A stretch of 64,000 bases of DNA, taken from Bradyrhizobium sp. Ghvi. Its GTDB lineage: Bacteria; Pseudomonadota; Alphaproteobacteria; Rhizobiales; Xanthobacteraceae. Every line of letters begins with the position of its first letter. The stretch's first letter is position 1. The translations under genes and the position numbers were made by a program. Of this stretch, positions 57,133 to 64,000 are shown in pieces. Location of the stretch: NCBI RefSeq assembly GCF_900115265.1, contig NZ_FOVU01000006.1, forward strand, positions 248,001-312,000, read 5' to 3'. The notes under the pieces were generated by a model. That model did not search any database and had not been told where the DNA came from. It saw only the letters and a list, made by a program, of their open reading frames with translations.

Positions 57133-60100
57133 ATGCAGATTGCGGAGTGGCTCGGGAAGCTGGGGCTTGGGCAATACGCGGAGCGTTTTGCCCAAAATGG
57201 GATCGATGTGGATGTCCTCCCCGAGCTGATGGATGAGGACTTTGACAAGCTTGGAGTTCTGCTCGGTCATCGTCGCAAAATGCTGCGTGCCATTGCCGAC
57301 CTCGATCCGGCCGCATTGATCGCATCGCCGACTCCTGCTCACGACGCCGAGCGGCGCCATCTCACCATCATGTTTTGCGATCTGGTCGGCTCGACTGCAC
57401 TCACGGCGCGTCTCGATCCCGAGGATATGTGGGAAGTGATCCGGACCTACCGCGCCGCATGCGCGCGCGTCATTGCCGCTTACGACGGCAAGATAGTCAG
57501 GTTCGTCGGTGACGGAATACTCGTCTATTTCGGCTATCCGCGAGCCCATGAAGACGATGCGGAGCGCGCCGTGCGTACGGGCCTCGACATCATCTCCGCA
57601 ATTCGTCAGCTCAAAACAGGCGCCGGCGAACTGGTTGAGCTGCGGATCGCAATTGCGACCGGGCTTGTGGTGGTCGGCGATCTCATCAGTGGAGAAGCGT
57701 CAGAGGAGCACGCGACCGTGGGCGATACGCCAAACCTCGCTGCTCGGCTTCAGAGCATTGCCGAGCCGGGGGTGGTCGTCGTTGCGTCATCGACGCGCCG
57801 GCTGCTTGGGGATCTCTTCACTTTTCGCAATCTCGGCCGCCGCGAAGTTAAGGGGATAGGCGAGCCCATTGCGGTGTGGGCGGTGGAAGGGGCGACCGCA
57901 TCCGAGAGCCGCTTCGAGGCGGTCCGTGCCGCGCGCTCGATCGGCTTTGTGGGCCGCAAGGATGAGATCGAATTCATTCTGTCGCGGCAGCGGGAGGCAT
58001 GGCAGGGCCGGGGCCAGATCGTACTGATTTCCGGTGAAGCAGGCATCGGCAAGTCGCGTATCGTCGCAACGCTGTCCGAAAGCCCCTCGTTGGGGACGCA
58101 CCGCCGAGTCCGATATCAGTGTTCGCCTTACCATACCAACAGCGCGCTTCATCCGTTTGTCGCCCAGCTCGAACGCGCCGCCGGAATCCGCTCGCTCGAT
58201 ACGCCCGAACAAAAGCTCGATAAGCTCGAGGCAATGCTTGCGCTTGGAACCCAGCAGGTCGCCCAGGCAACATCGCTCATTGCGGCTCTGCTTTCGATTC
58301 CAACCGGCGACCATCGCGCGCCCCTTGGCTTGAGTCCGGCGCAGCAGCGGCGACAGACATTTGCCGTCCTTCTCGATCAGCTCGAGGGCTTGGCGCGAGA
58401 TCAGCCCCTGCTGATCATCTGCGAGGATTTGCATTGGGCCGACGCCACGACCCTGGAGCTGCTTGACCTCGCGGTCGATCGGATCAGAGCGCTGCCGATA
58501 CTCGTGCTCATGACATCTCGGCCGGAGTTCGAGCCGTCCTGGTCGGGCCTTTCCAATGTCGGCCTGTTGCGGCTCGACCGGCTCGATCGGCAGGACACGC
58601 GCGCGCTCGTCGAACAGGTGGTTGTCGGTCGCCAGTTGCCACGCGAGTTGATGAAGCAGATCATCGACAAGACCGATGGCGTCCCGCTATTCGTCGAGGA
58701 ATTGACCAAGATGGTGCTGGAATCCGGCCTTCTGGTCGAAGATGCCGGGCGCTATCGCTTGAATAGTCCGCTTCCGCCGCTTGCTATCCCCGCCACGCTG
58801 CAGGATTCGCTGATGGCGCGGCTCGACCGGCTCGCTCCGGTCAAAGAGGTGGCGCAGATCGGCGCCGCAATCGGCCGCGACTTCTCATACGTCCTGTTGA
58901 AGTACGTGGCGGGGCGCGACGATCTCACCCTGAGCGCTGCGCTAGAACAACTAGAAGAGGCCGAATTGCTGCTTCGCCGTGGGTCCCCTCCCGACGCAAA
59001 CTATAGTTTCAAGCACGCCCTTGTTCAGGAAGCGGCCTACGGGAGTCTGCTCAAGAGCAAGCGGCAGCTGCTTCACACGAGAATTGGCGAGGTGCTGCGT
59101 GAGAAGTTTCCAGTCGTCGCCGAAACTGAGCCGGAAGTTCTGGCGCATCATTTCACCGAGGCGGGCCTGTGCGAGGTCGCTCTCGAATGGTGGCGCAAGG
59201 CGGGCCAGCTGGCGCTGAAACGCTCTGCCTATTCCGAAGCGGTCGCGCATCTCGGCAAGGCCGTTGCGACGGCAGACGAACTGGCTGACGGGTCCCGCCT
59301 GATGATGACGAGACTGCATCTTCAAATCTCATATGGCCGTGCACTCAGGGGCCGTCTCGGGCACAGCGCCCCCGAAACGATCGCGGCATGGACTCGTGCG
59401 CGCCAGTTCGCCGCCGACATCGATGATCCCGTTGAACTTGCGCCTGTTCATTCGGGGCTCTTCAACGCCTGCCTGACGCAGGGCGAACTCGCTCCGATGC
59501 AGGAGCTGGCGGATGCTATCAGGGGCGCCGCCGACCGATGGCCGGACTCCCCGGTGGCCGCCGTCGTTGCCCATTGGACGGGCGGCGTCACCTGCTGGTT
59601 CGCAGGCGATTACGTCAATGCGCGAACGCATCTCGAGCGGGCGCTGGCCATCTATGGTGCCGAACCGGATCCCGCGACATTCAGGGCGTCGGCGCTGGAT
59701 CTGCCGTTCGTGATCATGAGATTCCTTGCCCTGGTGCTCTGGCCGCTCGGCATTACCGCTCGTGCGCGCAGGCTCGCCGCCGAAGCGGTGGGTGCGCCTG
59801 GGGAGACACGGGCGCTTTCCCGGGCCAATGCGCTGGTTCATCGCGCGGTGTTCGATGGGGTCTGCGGGGGCATGTTGCAGCAGACAGAGACGATCCTGGC
59901 GCTCGGTCTCGCGCGCGACCACACGATGCCGCTGTATGTCGCCGCGGGCACCTACCTGAATGGCCTCGCCAAGTGGCGTGCCGGTGACCGCACGGCTGGA
60001 CTTGCGGACATGCGTCACGGCTGGACCTTGCTGCACGAGAACGATTGTTACCTCTGCGAACCGTTTTGGGGGATGCATGTCGCCGTGGCGAATGCAGAGG

Positions 60101-60462
60101 CGGGCGAGGTCGAAACGGGGCTGGAAATCCTGAGCGACGTGATCGCCCGGACCGCACAGTCCGGTCAGCATTGGCTTGATGCCGAGCTGCATCGTGTCCG
60201 CGGAAGGCTTCTGTCGCGCCATGGTTCTTCGGACGAATCCAGTGCCGAAGACGACCTCAAGCGAGCGCTGGAAATCGCGCGGCACCAACAGACGAAGACC
60301 TTCGAGCTGCGCAGTGCGCTTGGACTTGCCCACCTGCACAAGGCAAATGGCCGAGCAGGTGCGGCATCCGAAGTGCTCGCACCCATCCTCGCTGAATTCG
60401 AGGCGGAGCGTGATCTTCCCGAAGTTGCGGAAGCGAAGGAGCTGCTTGGGGATGGGCGTTAG
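57133..60462 (+). CDS. Large signalling protein: SAM domain, class III cyclase, AAA ATPase, TPR-like C terminus
   Basis: 1109 aa. Residues 1-58 are a SAM domain (IAEWLGKLGLGQYAERFAQNGID). A class III cyclase follows (75-250) with metal Asp D83 in IMFCDLVGSTAL and D127 in RFVGDGILVYFGYP. From 268 comes an AAA_16-type ATPase: P-loop GEAGIGKSR at 301-309 and Walker B LLIICEDLHWADATTLELLDL. The remainder (about 600-1109) is helical, TPR-like (AVAHLGKAVATADELADG, ARTHLERALAIYG). This architecture is common in Bradyrhizobium and suggests cyclic-nucleotide synthesis tuned by protein contacts. No membrane segment is seen. Confidence 0.9.
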   Translation: MQIAEWLGKLGLGQYAERFAQNGIDVDVLPELMDEDFDKLGVLLGHRRKMLRAIADLDPAALIASPTPAHDAERRHLTIMFCDLVGSTALTARLDPEDMWEVIRTYRAACARVIAAYDGKIVRFVGDGILVYFGYPRAHEDDAERAVRTGLDIISAIRQLKTGAGELVELRIAIATGLVVVGDLISGEASEEHATVGDTPNLAARLQSIAEPGVVVVASSTRRLLGDLFTFRNLGRREVKGIGEPIAVWAVEGATASESRFEAVRAARSIGFVGRKDEIEFILSRQREAWQGRGQIVLISGEAGIGKSRIVATLSESPSLGTHRRVRYQCSPYHTNSALHPFVAQLERAAGIRSLDTPEQKLDKLEAMLALGTQQVAQATSLIAALLSIPTGDHRAPLGLSPAQQRRQTFAVLLDQLEGLARDQPLLIICEDLHWADATTLELLDLAVDRIRALPILVLMTSRPEFEPSWSGLSNVGLLRLDRLDRQDTRALVEQVVVGRQLPRELMKQIIDKTDGVPLFVEELTKMVLESGLLVEDAGRYRLNSPLPPLAIPATLQDSLMARLDRLAPVKEVAQIGAAIGRDFSYVLLKYVAGRDDLTLSAALEQLEEAELLLRRGSPPDANYSFKHALVQEAAYGSLLKSKRQLLHTRIGEVLREKFPVVAETEPEVLAHHFTEAGLCEVALEWWRKAGQLALKRSAYSEAVAHLGKAVATADELADGSRLMMTRLHLQISYGRALRGRLGHSAPETIAAWTRARQFAADIDDPVELAPVHSGLFNACLTQGELAPMQELADAIRGAADRWPDSPVAAVVAHWTGGVTCWFAGDYVNARTHLERALAIYGAEPDPATFRASALDLPFVIMRFLALVLWPLGITARARRLAAEAVGAPGETRALSRANALVHRAVFDGVCGGMLQQTETILALGLARDHTMPLYVAAGTYLNGLAKWRAGDRTAGLADMRHGWTLLHENDCYLCEPFWGMHVAVANAEAGEVETGLEILSDVIARTAQSGQHWLDAELHRVRGRLLSRHGSSDESSAEDDLKRALEIARHQQTKTFELRSALGLAHLHKANGRAGAASEVLAPILAEFEAERDLPEVAEAKELLGDGR

Positions 60463-60775
60463 CCGCGCCGCCATTCGCTCGCGACAAGCGCCGCGCCGAC
60501 TTCAAGCCAGAACAGGTCGGCATCTTATTCCTCGATTCCGCAGCCGTAGTTCTCCGGTTTTGACACGCCATAACCTGTTGTGGTGAAACCTGGATATGCT
60601 TCTCGTGGTTGCGAGGGCGAGTCTGGCGGCGAATCCTGATTTCGGCTCAGCAATGTTGCCGGATTGCTCGTTGCCTCAAGGCTCAGACTTCGTTCCGACG
60701 CCAGGGCCATGTGGCGATTGGCTTGTCTTCGCAAGGGGCAGGCGGAGCGAACAAAGCCCATTTGGAGGTTCAGTC
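60463..60775. other. 313-base gap upstream of the polysaccharide secretion pair
   Basis: No gene or hairpin recognised. The frame of the next gene is open from 60596, but the translation there (SLPQGSDFVPTPGPCGDW) does not resemble a membrane-fusion protein, and no ribosome site precedes it. A promoter for the pair is expected here. Confidence 0.5.
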
Positions 60776-62056
60776 GTGGTTCGCTTGCATGTCGAACGTC
60801 TCATTCGCAGCCGGATCGCTCGGCGGTCGCTGGCGCTCGGGATCATCGCTCTCAGCGGATGGGCCCTGTTGCCGTATGTGACCTACCGTGTCGCTCCCTC
60901 CGCCTATGTCAATGCCGAGCTCATGCGGGTGACTGCGCCGATTGCGGGTCAGCTCTCGTCCGATCTTCCACGCAAGGGCGAATATTTCGAGCACGCCCGG
61001 ATGGTGCCGCTGGTCGAGGCGCGTTCGCCGGATCGCCGGCACTTCATGGACCTTGATCAGCAGCTTGCCGTGTCCACCAAACGCGCCGAGCTCGCACGTC
61101 GGCAACTCGAGGAGATCGCCGAGCTCGATCGCAAACTCCGCGAGCGCAGCGAGGACTATCGTTCGGGGATGGTCGCGCGCCTGAGCCACGAGATCGGCGA
61201 AACGGAAGTTGAAAAAGGCGGCTGTCTCGCTGAGGCGCGGCAGCGCATCGATGTCGCGGGCCGGATGGAGAGGCTCGTGAAGCTCGGCATCAGTTCGCAG
61301 ATCCGCTCCGGTGAGGCCCAGGCCTCGCAGGAGGCAACCGCAACGCGGTGCCAGATGGCCGATGAACGCCTGCAGCGCCTCAGGACGGAATTGGGGGCGG
61401 CCGAGAAGGGCATTTATCTTCGTGGCGATGCCAATGACGTGCCCTATTCTCAGCAGCAGCGCGAGCGGCTTGTCCTCCGCCGCCAGGAGCTCGAGACGGA
61501 CCTGTTGCAGAACAGCTCACGTGCCGCGCAGCTGGCCGCGGAAATCGCAGAGGAACGCACTCGACTTGATCGTCTCGACCACTACGACCTTTCCTTGCCC
61601 GCAGCCCATGTGGTCTGGTCAGTCGCGGCCAGCCCGGGCTCGGTGGTCACGGAAGGGCAGTCGGTCTTCGATTTCGCAGATTGCGAACGCCGGTTTATCG
61701 TTGTTGAACTACCCGAGCGCGATTTCGAGAAGATCAAGGCCGGAGATGCGGCTACCGTCCGTCTGATTGGGAGCCGCGAATGGAAGACCGGCCAGATCCG
61801 GCAGGTCCGCGGATCGGCGGCGTACGGCGATGATCGGCTGCTTGCGGCTCGGGTGCCGCGGCCTGATCCGGGCAACATTACCGTTGAGATATCGCTTCCG
61901 CCCAATGAGACGTCGGCCGACCGCAACGGCTCCTGCGATATCGGACGGTTGGCTGAGGTGCGCTTCGAGCGCAGAGCCGACGGCCTGCTACGATTGGTCA
62001 GCTCGAGGTTAAAATGGCTGACCGCTCGCCTGGAACTCGACCAATCGCCCCTGTGA
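60776..62056 (+). CDS. HlyD-like membrane-fusion protein paired with a glucan synthase (BgsB-like)
   Basis: 426 aa from the GTG at 60776, which has GGAGG 7 nt upstream. A basic start (VVRLHVERLIRSRIARRS) leads to one membrane helix (about 19-40), then a lipoyl-type half (AYVNAELMRVTAPIAGQLSSDLP), a long coiled-coil hairpin (about 95-275, with TKRAELARRQLEEIAELDRKLRERSEDY) and the second half (AAHVVWSVAASPGSVVTEGQSVFDFADC). It would connect the inner-membrane synthase to the periplasm or outer membrane. It is 12 nt before the glycosyltransferase gene. Sinorhizobium bgsB, next to bgsA, has the same arrangement. Confidence 0.75.
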   Translation: MVRLHVERLIRSRIARRSLALGIIALSGWALLPYVTYRVAPSAYVNAELMRVTAPIAGQLSSDLPRKGEYFEHARMVPLVEARSPDRRHFMDLDQQLAVSTKRAELARRQLEEIAELDRKLRERSEDYRSGMVARLSHEIGETEVEKGGCLAEARQRIDVAGRMERLVKLGISSQIRSGEAQASQEATATRCQMADERLQRLRTELGAAEKGIYLRGDANDVPYSQQQRERLVLRRQELETDLLQNSSRAAQLAAEIAEERTRLDRLDHYDLSLPAAHVVWSVAASPGSVVTEGQSVFDFADCERRFIVVELPERDFEKIKAGDAATVRLIGSREWKTGQIRQVRGSAAYGDDRLLAARVPRPDPGNITVEISLPPNETSADRNGSCDIGRLAEVRFERRADGLLRLVSSRLKWLTARLELDQSPL

Positions 62057-62068
62057 GCGAGATGTTCC

Positions 62069-64000
62069 ATGCAAGCCATGACTCTGCCTCTCTCTCAGCT
62101 GTTCGCGCCGATGCTGGGCATATTTGCTGCGATGTACCTGTTGGCGCCGACCTTCCAAGTCGCGCGCCCTTGGGCGCGTGGCGCGGTCTTTGTCGCGGTT
62201 TGGCTTGTGGTCGCGCGCTATCTCGAGTGGCGTATTTTTACCACCGTGTTGCCGGCGAGCGGGACCTGGTATCAGGTCGGCTGGATCTGGTTCTGTCTGT
62301 TCGTCGAACTCCTGACCTTCACAGATCAGTTCATTCTTTATCTGACGTTCCTTCGCAGGACCGATCGCCGAAGCGAAGCAGATCAGCACGAGCGTCGGCT
62401 TCGCAGCCTGCCGGATGATGAGCTGCCCTCGGTCGATGTCTTTATTCCGACCTATGACGAGCCATTCGAAGTGCTGGAAAAGACGATCACGGGCGCGCTG
62501 TGTCTGGACTATCCAAATCTCCAGGTCTGGGTCTTGGATGATGGTCGCAGGCCTTGGCTCAGGACACTCTGCACGCAAAAGGGCGCCGGCTATCTCACGC
62601 GCGCCGACAACTTGAATGCCAAGGCCGGCAATATCAATCATGCCCTGACCAAGACGAACGGCGAGTTCTTTGCGATCTTTGATGCGGACTTCGTGCCGCA
62701 ACGCAATTTCCTGATGCGTGCGATGGGCTTCTTCGTTGATCCAAGGATCGGAATCGTCCAGATCCCGCACGCCTTCTACAATGAGGACCCGATGCAGGCG
62801 AATCTCGGCCTGCACAGGGGACTGCCGGACGAACAACGGTTCTTCTTCGATTCCATTATGCCCGCGCGCGACGGCTGGGATGGTGCCTTTTGTTGTGGTT
62901 CCAACTCCGTCACGCGTCGCGCAGCACTTCGCGAGGTGGGCGATGCCTTGCCGACGCAATCCATTACGGAAGACATCCTGCTGACGCTCGTCCTGCTGCG
63001 CAAGGGATACGTCACCCGTTATCTCTGCGAACCGCTGGCGATTGGACTGGCGCCGGAAAGCCTGGATGCCTTTTTCGTGCAACGGCAACGCTGGGCGCGT
63101 GGTGCGATCCAGACGCTATACCTCGCCGCCGGCCCGCTCGGCCCCGGACTGAGCTTGATGCATCGGCTCCTCTTCTTTCCGACGCATTGGCTCTCATTGG
63201 GCGTGCGGGCGCTCATGGTCGTGGTGGTTCCGATCGTCTTCATGTGGACCGGCTTGGCGCCCGTCGTCGACGTCACCCCCGAATCGGTGTTCTACTACTT
63301 GTTCCCCGCGATCCTGGCGCTCAACGGCGGCATCTCCTGGTTCGCGCCGCATGCGCATTTTCCGCTCGCCGCTCAGGTGTCGGCGACGATCCAGAGCTTC
63401 AAGCTCCTGCCGACGGTGCTGGGGACTCTCGTCAAGCCGACAGGACATGCGTTCAGGGTGACGCCCAAGGGCGCTGCCGCGCGGCGCGCGAGTTACGCCG
63501 CGGAGATATTCTGGCCGTCGGCGGTCCTGATGGCGTTGACAGTTGTCGGTGTGGTTCTGAACACGATCCCGGAATGGCGGGTCATCGATCATCCGGCGGC
63601 TCTACCGATGGTTGCGTTTTGGTCGGTCGTGAACATCGTCGTGCTTTTCTTCGTCTGCATGACCTCGCTGCAGGCGCGGATGGGACGTACCGAGGAGCGT
63701 TTCGACATCGACGAAACTATATTGATCGAGACCGGGACCGGCGAGCAGCTTACTGGGCGCGTGAGCAACATCTCCCTCTCTGGCGCGGGCGTTCTGCTTG
63801 GCTCCGGCATTGACTGTCCTCGCGCCGGAGAACAGCTCCGCGTGCACATCATGCAGGTGGGATGGGTCGATGCGGTGATTGCGCAACGCAGGGACCGGCT
63901 CATCGGGGTGCAGTTCAAATTGCCGCAGTCGCTTGAACGAGACCTGCTGATCCGCAAGCTCTTCACCGTCGCCCGTCTGAAGGGGAACGGTGTCGTCGCG
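62069..64000 (+). CDS. Cellulose/beta-glucan synthase-like glycosyltransferase 2 with PilZ-like end (BgsA/CrdS/BcsA-like), cut by window edge
   Basis: 644 codons readable, no stop before 64000. Four membrane segments flank a GT2 domain with all processive-synthase marks: DDG (D157, D158), FDADF (D205, D207), ITED (D302) and QRQRW (338-342), plus NLNAKAGNINHAL. Further helices follow (about 380-530). At the C terminus RTEER (540-544) and NISLSGAG (567-574) fit the RxxxR...NxSxxG c-di-GMP motif of PilZ domains. It should polymerise a UDP- or similar sugar and translocate the chain, probably under c-di-GMP control. With an HlyD-like partner it resembles the mixed-linkage glucan synthase of Sinorhizobium more than a bcs cellulose operon. 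Confidence 0.82.
   Translation, partial: MQAMTLPLSQLFAPMLGIFAAMYLLAPTFQVARPWARGAVFVAVWLVVARYLEWRIFTTVLPASGTWYQVGWIWFCLFVELLTFTDQFILYLTFLRRTDRRSEADQHERRLRSLPDDELPSVDVFIPTYDEPFEVLEKTITGALCLDYPNLQVWVLDDGRRPWLRTLCTQKGAGYLTRADNLNAKAGNINHALTKTNGEFFAIFDADFVPQRNFLMRAMGFFVDPRIGIVQIPHAFYNEDPMQANLGLHRGLPDEQRFFFDSIMPARDGWDGAFCCGSNSVTRRAALREVGDALPTQSITEDILLTLVLLRKGYVTRYLCEPLAIGLAPESLDAFFVQRQRWARGAIQTLYLAAGPLGPGLSLMHRLLFFPTHWLSLGVRALMVVVVPIVFMWTGLAPVVDVTPESVFYYLFPAILALNGGISWFAPHAHFPLAAQVSATIQSFKLLPTVLGTLVKPTGHAFRVTPKGAAARRASYAAEIFWPSAVLMALTVVGVVLNTIPEWRVIDHPAALPMVAFWSVVNIVVLFFVCMTSLQARMGRTEERFDIDETILIETGTGEQLTGRVSNISLSGAGVLLGSGIDCPRAGEQLRVHIMQVGWVDAVIAQRRDRLIGVQFKLPQSLERDLLIRKLFTVARLKGNGVVA

Follow-up and report, generated by a model that had tools for sequence, protein, structure and literature searches.

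A probable c-di-GMP-controlled glucan synthase unit in Bradyrhizobium sp. Ghvi and its likely bearing on the fold of the BgsA C-terminal domain

Does the pair of an HlyD-type gene and a processive glycosyltransferase gene at the end of a 64,000-nucleotide stretch of Bradyrhizobium sp. Ghvi DNA follow the logic of a cellulose (bcs) operon or that of the Sinorhizobium bgsBA genes for mixed-linkage β-glucan, and how would cyclic di-GMP (c-di-GMP) control it? The whole stretch, hereafter the window, comprises positions 248001–312000 of a 402-kb contig in a 7.9-Mb genome. An earlier note, made from the letters of the window, had proposed a c-di-GMP-controlled synthase of the bgsBA kind. We consider it probable that the locus is a three-gene c-di-GMP-controlled polysaccharide unit, that its synthase is a close BgsA relative keeping the ancestral PilZ ligand site, and that the BgsA domain described as 'non-PilZ' shares the PilZ fold, its original site having been lost and a new one built around R599 and H615. 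The window enzyme is read as a BgsA relative with ancestral PilZ control because its catalytic core groups with BgsA in two of the core trees, because the BgsA C-domain matches the PilZ fold by model, and because of the way R599 and H615 are distributed among the relatives.

Orthologues were searched for in 265 Bradyrhizobium species genomes (synthase threshold, E 1e-200), and the synthase was present in 24 of them, the genome of strain Ghvi counted. The three genes and the C-terminal features of the synthase are as follows.

60776–62056, plus strand: HlyD-type membrane-fusion (periplasmic adaptor) gene, BgsB-like, 426 amino acids from a GTG, PF13437 match
62069–64000 in the window, continuing along the contig to its stop at 64258, plus strand: putative processive GT2 β-glucan synthase gene, a BgsA relative by its motifs, PilZ end and trees
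63686–63964, plus strand: PilZ domain (amino acids 540–632), PF07238, 37.6 bits against a cut-off of 22.5, E 2.9e-9
63686–63700, plus strand: PilZ motif 1, RxxxR (RTEER, 540–544), both Arg kept in 24/24 orthologues
63767–63784, plus strand: PilZ motif 2, [DN]xSxxG (NISLSG, 567–572), kept in 24/24 orthologues
64379–66283, outside the window (7379–9283 of L009), plus strand: dCache-PAS-GGDEF diguanylate cyclase gene, by domain matches

The adaptor matched HlyD_3 (PF13437) with 37.2 bits against a cut-off of 22.2, and was 28–29% identical (E ~1e-40) to the HlyD proteins encoded beside three bgsA genes of Sinorhizobium. Its frame is open back to an ATG at 60596, and a longer open reading frame (ORF) with the same stop at 62056 is possible; the GTG at 60776 is a plausible start, and in two relatives (L177 and L191) the longest adaptor ORF is exactly 426 amino acids, the length counted from the GTG. 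The adaptor stop is separated from the synthase ATG at 62069 by 12 nucleotides, as the earlier note had reported for its membrane-fusion gene, and the adaptor was adjacent to the synthase in all 24 orthologous loci. The synthase has 729 amino acids, 644 of them inside the window, and its gene ends 258 bases past the window edge. The cyclase gene, 379 to 2283 bases beyond the window end, encodes GGEEF with RPAD ahead of it and was found downstream of the pair in 19 of the 24 loci; it belongs to the same unit as the adaptor and the synthase.

The PilZ-like end that had been read from RTEER and NISLSG was confirmed, with PF07238 above its cut-off and both motifs intact, and was the best of the 11 PilZ matches in the genome. 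Both motifs occurred in 24/24 orthologues; a simple pattern search overlooked one motif in each of two orthologues, in which the aligned columns show both. Chance occurrence of the motifs was ruled out, as the five motif residues are kept in all 24 (N or D at one). Over the 24 loci, the ratio of non-synonymous to synonymous substitution rates (dN/dS) was lowest in the synthase core (0.098), followed by HlyD (0.13), the cyclase (0.16), PilZ (0.275) and the last 69 residues of the synthase (0.50). Given this occurrence and these low ratios, the three-gene unit is, on sequence evidence, patchy among species yet constrained where present, with purifying selection on all parts. The synthase of Bradyrhizobium nanningense was 90% identical to that of the window.

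All the catalytic motifs of a processive synthase and the gating loop, which the earlier note had listed, were read directly in the protein.

62537–62542, plus strand: catalytic DD (D157 and D158), invariant in 35/35 aligned sequences
62681–62689, plus strand: DxD (DAD, 205–207), both D invariant in the 35-sequence alignment
62966–62974, plus strand: TED (300–302), catalytic base motif, E301 and D302 invariant in the 35-sequence alignment
63056–63058, plus strand: E330, aligned to E327 of Sinorhizobium meliloti BgsA, invariant in a 37-row alignment
63080–63094, plus strand: QxxRW (QRQRW, 338–342), Q338, R339, R341 and W342 invariant in the 35-sequence alignment
63452–63469, plus strand: gating loop FxVTxK (FRVTPK, 462–467), F462, T465 and K467 invariant in the 35-sequence alignment

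E330 was also aligned with a Glu of Cereibacter BcsA. According to the available text of PMC5567048, E327 of S. meliloti BgsA could correspond to E371 of Rhodobacter sphaeroides BcsA, the residue that forms the autoinhibitory salt bridge with the first PilZ Arg. All solved structures related by sequence to the synthase (six distinct sequences) are of cellulose synthase subunits. In the Ghvi genome only one other synthase match was found at E <=1e-10 (29% identical, in a frame of 925 amino acids).

bcsB, bcsC or bcsZ-type genes immediately downstream would speak for a bcs operon, and the sequence beyond position 64000 held the diguanylate cyclase instead. When 13 kb past the window end was read and its ORFs were scanned, bcsB, bcsC and bcsZ were not found among them. 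Nine further ORFs follow the cyclase; two matched nothing, and seven matched a polyhydroxybutyrate depolymerase, a glutathione S-transferase, an AraC-type regulator, an SMP-30 protein, an acetyltransferase, a GMC oxidoreductase and an AAA ATPase. In the whole genome there was no match to the models for BcsB (PF03170), the BcsC C-terminus (PF05420) or the GH8/BcsZ family (PF01270), all of which recognized their Escherichia coli controls. Cellulose production from a bcs locus was thus ruled out.

Trees of the catalytic core were built without the C-terminal region. FastTree was run on 95 of 115 aligned sequences (20 near-duplicates were dropped, and the partial match L031 was left out), and later trees on 47 of these 95 and then on 43 sequences including five added relatives, L199–L203. 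The window clade joined Thalassospira, Terasakiella, Rhizobiaceae BgsA and L085, a protein without the PilZ motif from a gammaproteobacterial metagenome-assembled genome, with a support of 0.998 in FastTree (95 sequences) and an ultrafast bootstrap (UFBoot) of 100 (47 sequences). Cyanobacterial sequences formed a separate clade (FastTree 0.999; UFBoot 100). In the 43-sequence tree, L199 grouped with the window clade (UFBoot 100) and Thalassospira with BgsA (86). Parsimony on the two earlier trees placed an intact PilZ motif at the window–BgsA ancestor and at the ancestor of the tested HlyD-type members.

Residues at the channel entrance were compared at R. sphaeroides BcsA positions that are discussed as differing between glucan synthase classes (PMC6821405, available part). 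At positions 298, 299, 302, 309, 412 and 465 the window synthase agreed with BgsA and differed from the commonest BcsA residue, and Pro at 412 was found in the window/BgsA group only, among the groups compared. At 37 core positions separating BgsA from BcsA, it had the BgsA residue in 18 cases and the BcsA residue in 5; the other 14 matched neither. The channel-entrance residues thus favour, on sequence grounds, a BgsA-like product; they do not settle its linkage. The proposed likeness to bgsBA rather than bcs is thus supported by these residues and by the core trees, by the latter less firmly as sequences were added. It does not extend to BgsA proper: since Sinorhizobium BgsA lacks the PilZ motifs, the window synthase is related to it but differs in its ligand site.

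The C-terminal c-di-GMP-binding domain of BgsA has been published as not PilZ (available text of PMC5567048). The Pfam PilZ model had no match in any of the four BgsA sequences scanned, and hhalign of the BgsA C-region against BcsA PilZ ends gave a Prob of 0.3, in agreement with the published BLAST failure. The C-regions of 12 BgsA against the intact PilZ ends of 41 relatives gave a Prob of 97.4 and an E of 9.3e-12, and the best of 100 column-permutation controls for the full C-region (99 shuffles and one reversal) reached E 0.029. The relatives' PilZ ends matched BcsA PilZ with a Prob of 97.4; thus, the relatives bridge BgsA to BcsA PilZ, since they are linked to both and the direct comparison fails. 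Compared with one group at a time, the full C-region reached Prob values of 94 with Thalassospira and Terasakiella, 85 with the window clade, 36 with the Bradyrhizobium 36% group and 1.8 with the beta/gamma group, and barrel-only comparison with each of these four groups failed. The BgsA barrel alone matched L199–L203 with E 7.1e-6 (best of 200 shuffles, 7.4e-3). As the barrel was clear only with these five, much of the earlier signal lay in the flanks, that is, the membrane-side segment and the C-terminal helix. A hidden Markov model (HMM) of 47 PilZ ends with flanks scored the C-regions of all 12 BgsA at 26.8–32.6 bits; among 2400 shuffled copies, the best of the 2063 listed matches had 9.3 bits.

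Structure prediction pointed in the same direction. AlphaFold with BgsA rows only gave a C-domain of six strands and a helix, with a predicted local distance difference test score (pLDDT) of 85–91 at residues 21–70 and 63–85 at 71–100. VIA-align of this model against the PDB ranked 33 rows, with Z values between 11.0 and 7.2, ahead of the first different fold, which scored 5.4; we take 32 of the 33 to be PilZ proteins, and 4q63 is titled uncharacterised. A full-length BgsA model, made with 39 rows including PilZ relatives, had a mean pLDDT of 85.6–89.7 in all five models and could be superposed on E. coli BcsA for 630 residues (2.7 Å), through the PilZ region. Judging from these models, the BgsA C-domain has a PilZ fold, and the 'not PilZ' view looks wrong at the level of the fold. 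A literature search, which took in few subscription papers, found no title, abstract start or passage stating that the BgsA C-domain has a PilZ fold.

How, then, would two ligand sites sit on one fold? The published residue letters agreed with the S. meliloti BgsA sequence at 10/10 positions checked, and R599 and H615 are needed for c-di-GMP binding according to the available text of PMC5567048. Both were invariant in 12/12 BgsA and both absent in 7/7 sequences of the window clade, Thalassospira and Terasakiella. Among the 115 aligned sequences, the two occurred together in exactly the 12 BgsA, and never in a protein with the PilZ motif. The only stretch of three or more residues with a pLDDT under 50 in the full-length BgsA model was 600–608, an insertion starting next to R599 and containing R605 and D608. 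L199, L200, L202 and L203 lack R599 but combine intact PilZ motifs with His in the column of H615, where L201 has Asn; we infer that the four represent an intermediate state, and given the tree the His may be ancient or have arisen more than once. One history consistent with this distribution, to which we give even chances, is that the c-di-GMP site moved on a single PilZ scaffold in the HlyD-partnered glucan synthases: from an ancestor that bound the ligand through RxxxR and [DN]xSxxG, as would be expected of the window protein, BgsA would have acquired an insertion, the Arg-rich hairpin from R599 to D608, and the old motifs would have disappeared, the new pocket driving the same output, and the window enzyme would be the unremodelled version. 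If so, swapping the tails of the window enzyme and BgsA should transfer the ligand mode and leave the polymer unchanged.

The preferred reading of the locus suggests the following course. Once its sensor domains are triggered, the membrane-bound dCache-PAS-GGDEF enzyme would make c-di-GMP, which would bind the PilZ end through RTEER and NISLSG. Binding would break the salt bridge between R540 and E330, as described for R. sphaeroides BcsA, and free the FRVTPK gating loop. As the motifs and phylogeny suggest, UDP-glucose would then be polymerised to a linear β-glucan, most likely mixed-linkage like the BgsA product, and threaded through the membrane channel of the synthase. The HlyD-type protein, in place of BcsB, would carry the chain across the periplasm.

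Several observations weigh against this reading, and they are given here together with the alternatives. As for the product, the residue at 276 is His as in BcsA (Gln in BgsA), and those at 477 and 480 agree with neither enzyme; because of these residues, the product could differ from that of BgsA. The synthase might be an HlyD-partnered cellulose synthase of the cyanobacterial XcsA-XcsB-TolC type, making plain (1,4)-β-glucan under PilZ control. This is conceivable though doubtful: XcsA (Tll0007) with its PilZ and HlyD-like XcsB is a described precedent (PMC12430437, available part), the His at 276 fits, and the best NCBIfam model for the synthase is CelA (TIGR03030). However, the CelA score of 409.8 is far under the cut-off of 699.1, and so is the 407.5 of S. 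meliloti BgsA, the cyanobacterial sequences form their own clade, six channel-entrance positions are BgsA-like, and the genome has no BcsB match.

As for control, the PilZ dN/dS is about three times the core value, and in RiGT2, the mixed-linkage glucan synthase of Romboutsia ilealis, both PilZ motifs are present and no c-di-GMP binding was seen, as reported in the available part of PMC10374906; PilZ motifs alone therefore do not guarantee binding. The domain could be structural, as in RiGT2, where it is still needed for activity (PMC10374906, same part), with control by expression or another input. We regard this as unlikely in the window enzyme, in which the higher PilZ ratio would fit, whereas the five motif residues kept in every orthologue and the cyclase beside the synthase in most loci argue against it.

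As for the fold and the ancestry, the BgsA barrel alone against the 41 PilZ ends gave E 0.013, which is not significant beside a shuffle best of 0.005. Only one of the five C-domain AlphaFold models was good (68, the others 31–47), and in Foldseek, where the best PDB match to the C-domain model was a PilZ protein at E 1e-3, serine proteases appeared from rank 22. Upon addition of L199–L203, the UFBoot of the window–BgsA node fell to 34 with L085 and to 19 when L085 was left out; four of these added relatives were placed in the other large clade. Parsimony left the Thalassospira–BgsA ancestor alone ambiguous. The S. meliloti substitutions R536A and R535A/R536A had no effect (PMC5567048, available part), which fits either reading. 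That the window enzyme and BgsA share only a catalytic core, one of them having swapped its tail for an unrelated domain, is the published view and would suit the missing Pfam PilZ matches, the failed hhalign with BcsA PilZ and the non-significant barrel, but is highly improbable against the full-region and L199–L203 hhalign values, the HMM scores well above the shuffled best, and the models matching PilZ proteins and E. coli BcsA.

The wider occurrence of this architecture was counted in the best 80 named loci of at least 585 relatives from genome collections, with an HlyD neighbour defined as lying within 3 kb on the same strand; plasmid collections were also searched. An HlyD–GT2 pair was present in 57/80 loci; its absence at L081 is uninformative because that stretch starts inside the synthase. 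HlyD neighbour and PilZ pattern xR[DN]SG occurred together in 25/80, in genera including Bradyrhizobium, Cupriavidus, Pandoraea, Pseudomonas, Dyella, Azospirillum, Thalassospira and others. By motif columns, the 80 comprised 28 with xR[DN]SG (24 with both Arg), six with the R599–H615 pair, none with both and 46 with neither; if Ala is permitted for Ser, as in the available text of PMC5567048, L116 and L122 would leave the last group. Judged by these counts, a PilZ end is common on synthases of this kind.

Further features were observed in and around such loci. Upstream of the window adaptor, a large same-strand ORF (57133–60462) with SAM, class III nucleotide cyclase and AAA ATPase domains by Pfam ends 313 nucleotides before the GTG. 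A second HlyD–GT2–PilZ pair (L065 and L066), whose synthase is ~37% identical to that of the window, lies on plasmids of Bradyrhizobium diazoefficiens and B. elkanii typed conjugative by PLSDB. In one Bradyrhizobium genome (L197), a second synthase ORF ~60 kb from the full unit matches residues 294–704 at 77%. A diguanylate cyclase gene lies directly downstream of the Terasakiella pair (L077, 7914–11051). Cyanobacterial XcsA-like loci (L143, L093, L095 and others), whose synthases have been published as carrying PilZ, mostly have Trp for the second Arg of RxxxR (pattern xWxSG), and a Thermosynechococcus relative scores 14.8 bits for PilZ, under the cut-off of 22.5, with RxxxR lost in the aligned columns. 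HlyD–GT2 pairs of Rhodobacterales and Agrobacterium (L067, L068 and others) have the residues of neither the PilZ nor the BgsA site (EASTT or similar), and a cache-domain gene is annotated beside two of them; their C-domains may have lost or rebuilt the site in further, independent events.

The BgsA domain was published as a new kind of c-di-GMP receptor, and the window enzyme and its relatives link it to PilZ. A puzzle of receptor diversity would thereby become the question of how a ligand site can be rebuilt while the fold stays fixed, with matched enzymes at hand for testing it. The probable c-di-GMP-controlled glucan makers are also extended to bradyrhizobia, where the adjacent sensor cyclase suggests a private signal circuit.

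Among known systems, BgsB-BgsA of S. meliloti resembles the window unit in having an HlyD-type gene directly before the GT2 gene and an adjoining diguanylate cyclase gene, which is divergent there (L064, 2415–3440). BgsA of three Sinorhizobium is 41–43% identical to the window synthase, with shared channel-entrance residues and, by model, the same C-terminal fold; unlike it, BgsA lacks RxxxR and [DN]xSxxG, and the window synthase has Val and Gly at the R599 and H615 columns and no hairpin insertion around 599–608. BcsA-BcsB of R. sphaeroides and E. coli shares the GT2 core, the gating loop, a PilZ end with the same motifs and the salt-bridge pair, whereas the window genome lacks BcsB, BcsC and GH8 and has an HlyD partner instead, its synthase lying outside the BcsA clades. 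RiGT2 is likewise a GT2 enzyme with PilZ motifs (RTSER and NLSEKG; available part of PMC10374906), but from a Gram-positive host and with the non-binding PilZ described above. Cyanobacterial XcsA-XcsB(-TolC), although in a clade apart from the window synthase, also joins a PilZ-annotated synthase to an HlyD-like partner (PMC12430437, available part), and because of this precedent the combination of HlyD and PilZ is not in itself new.

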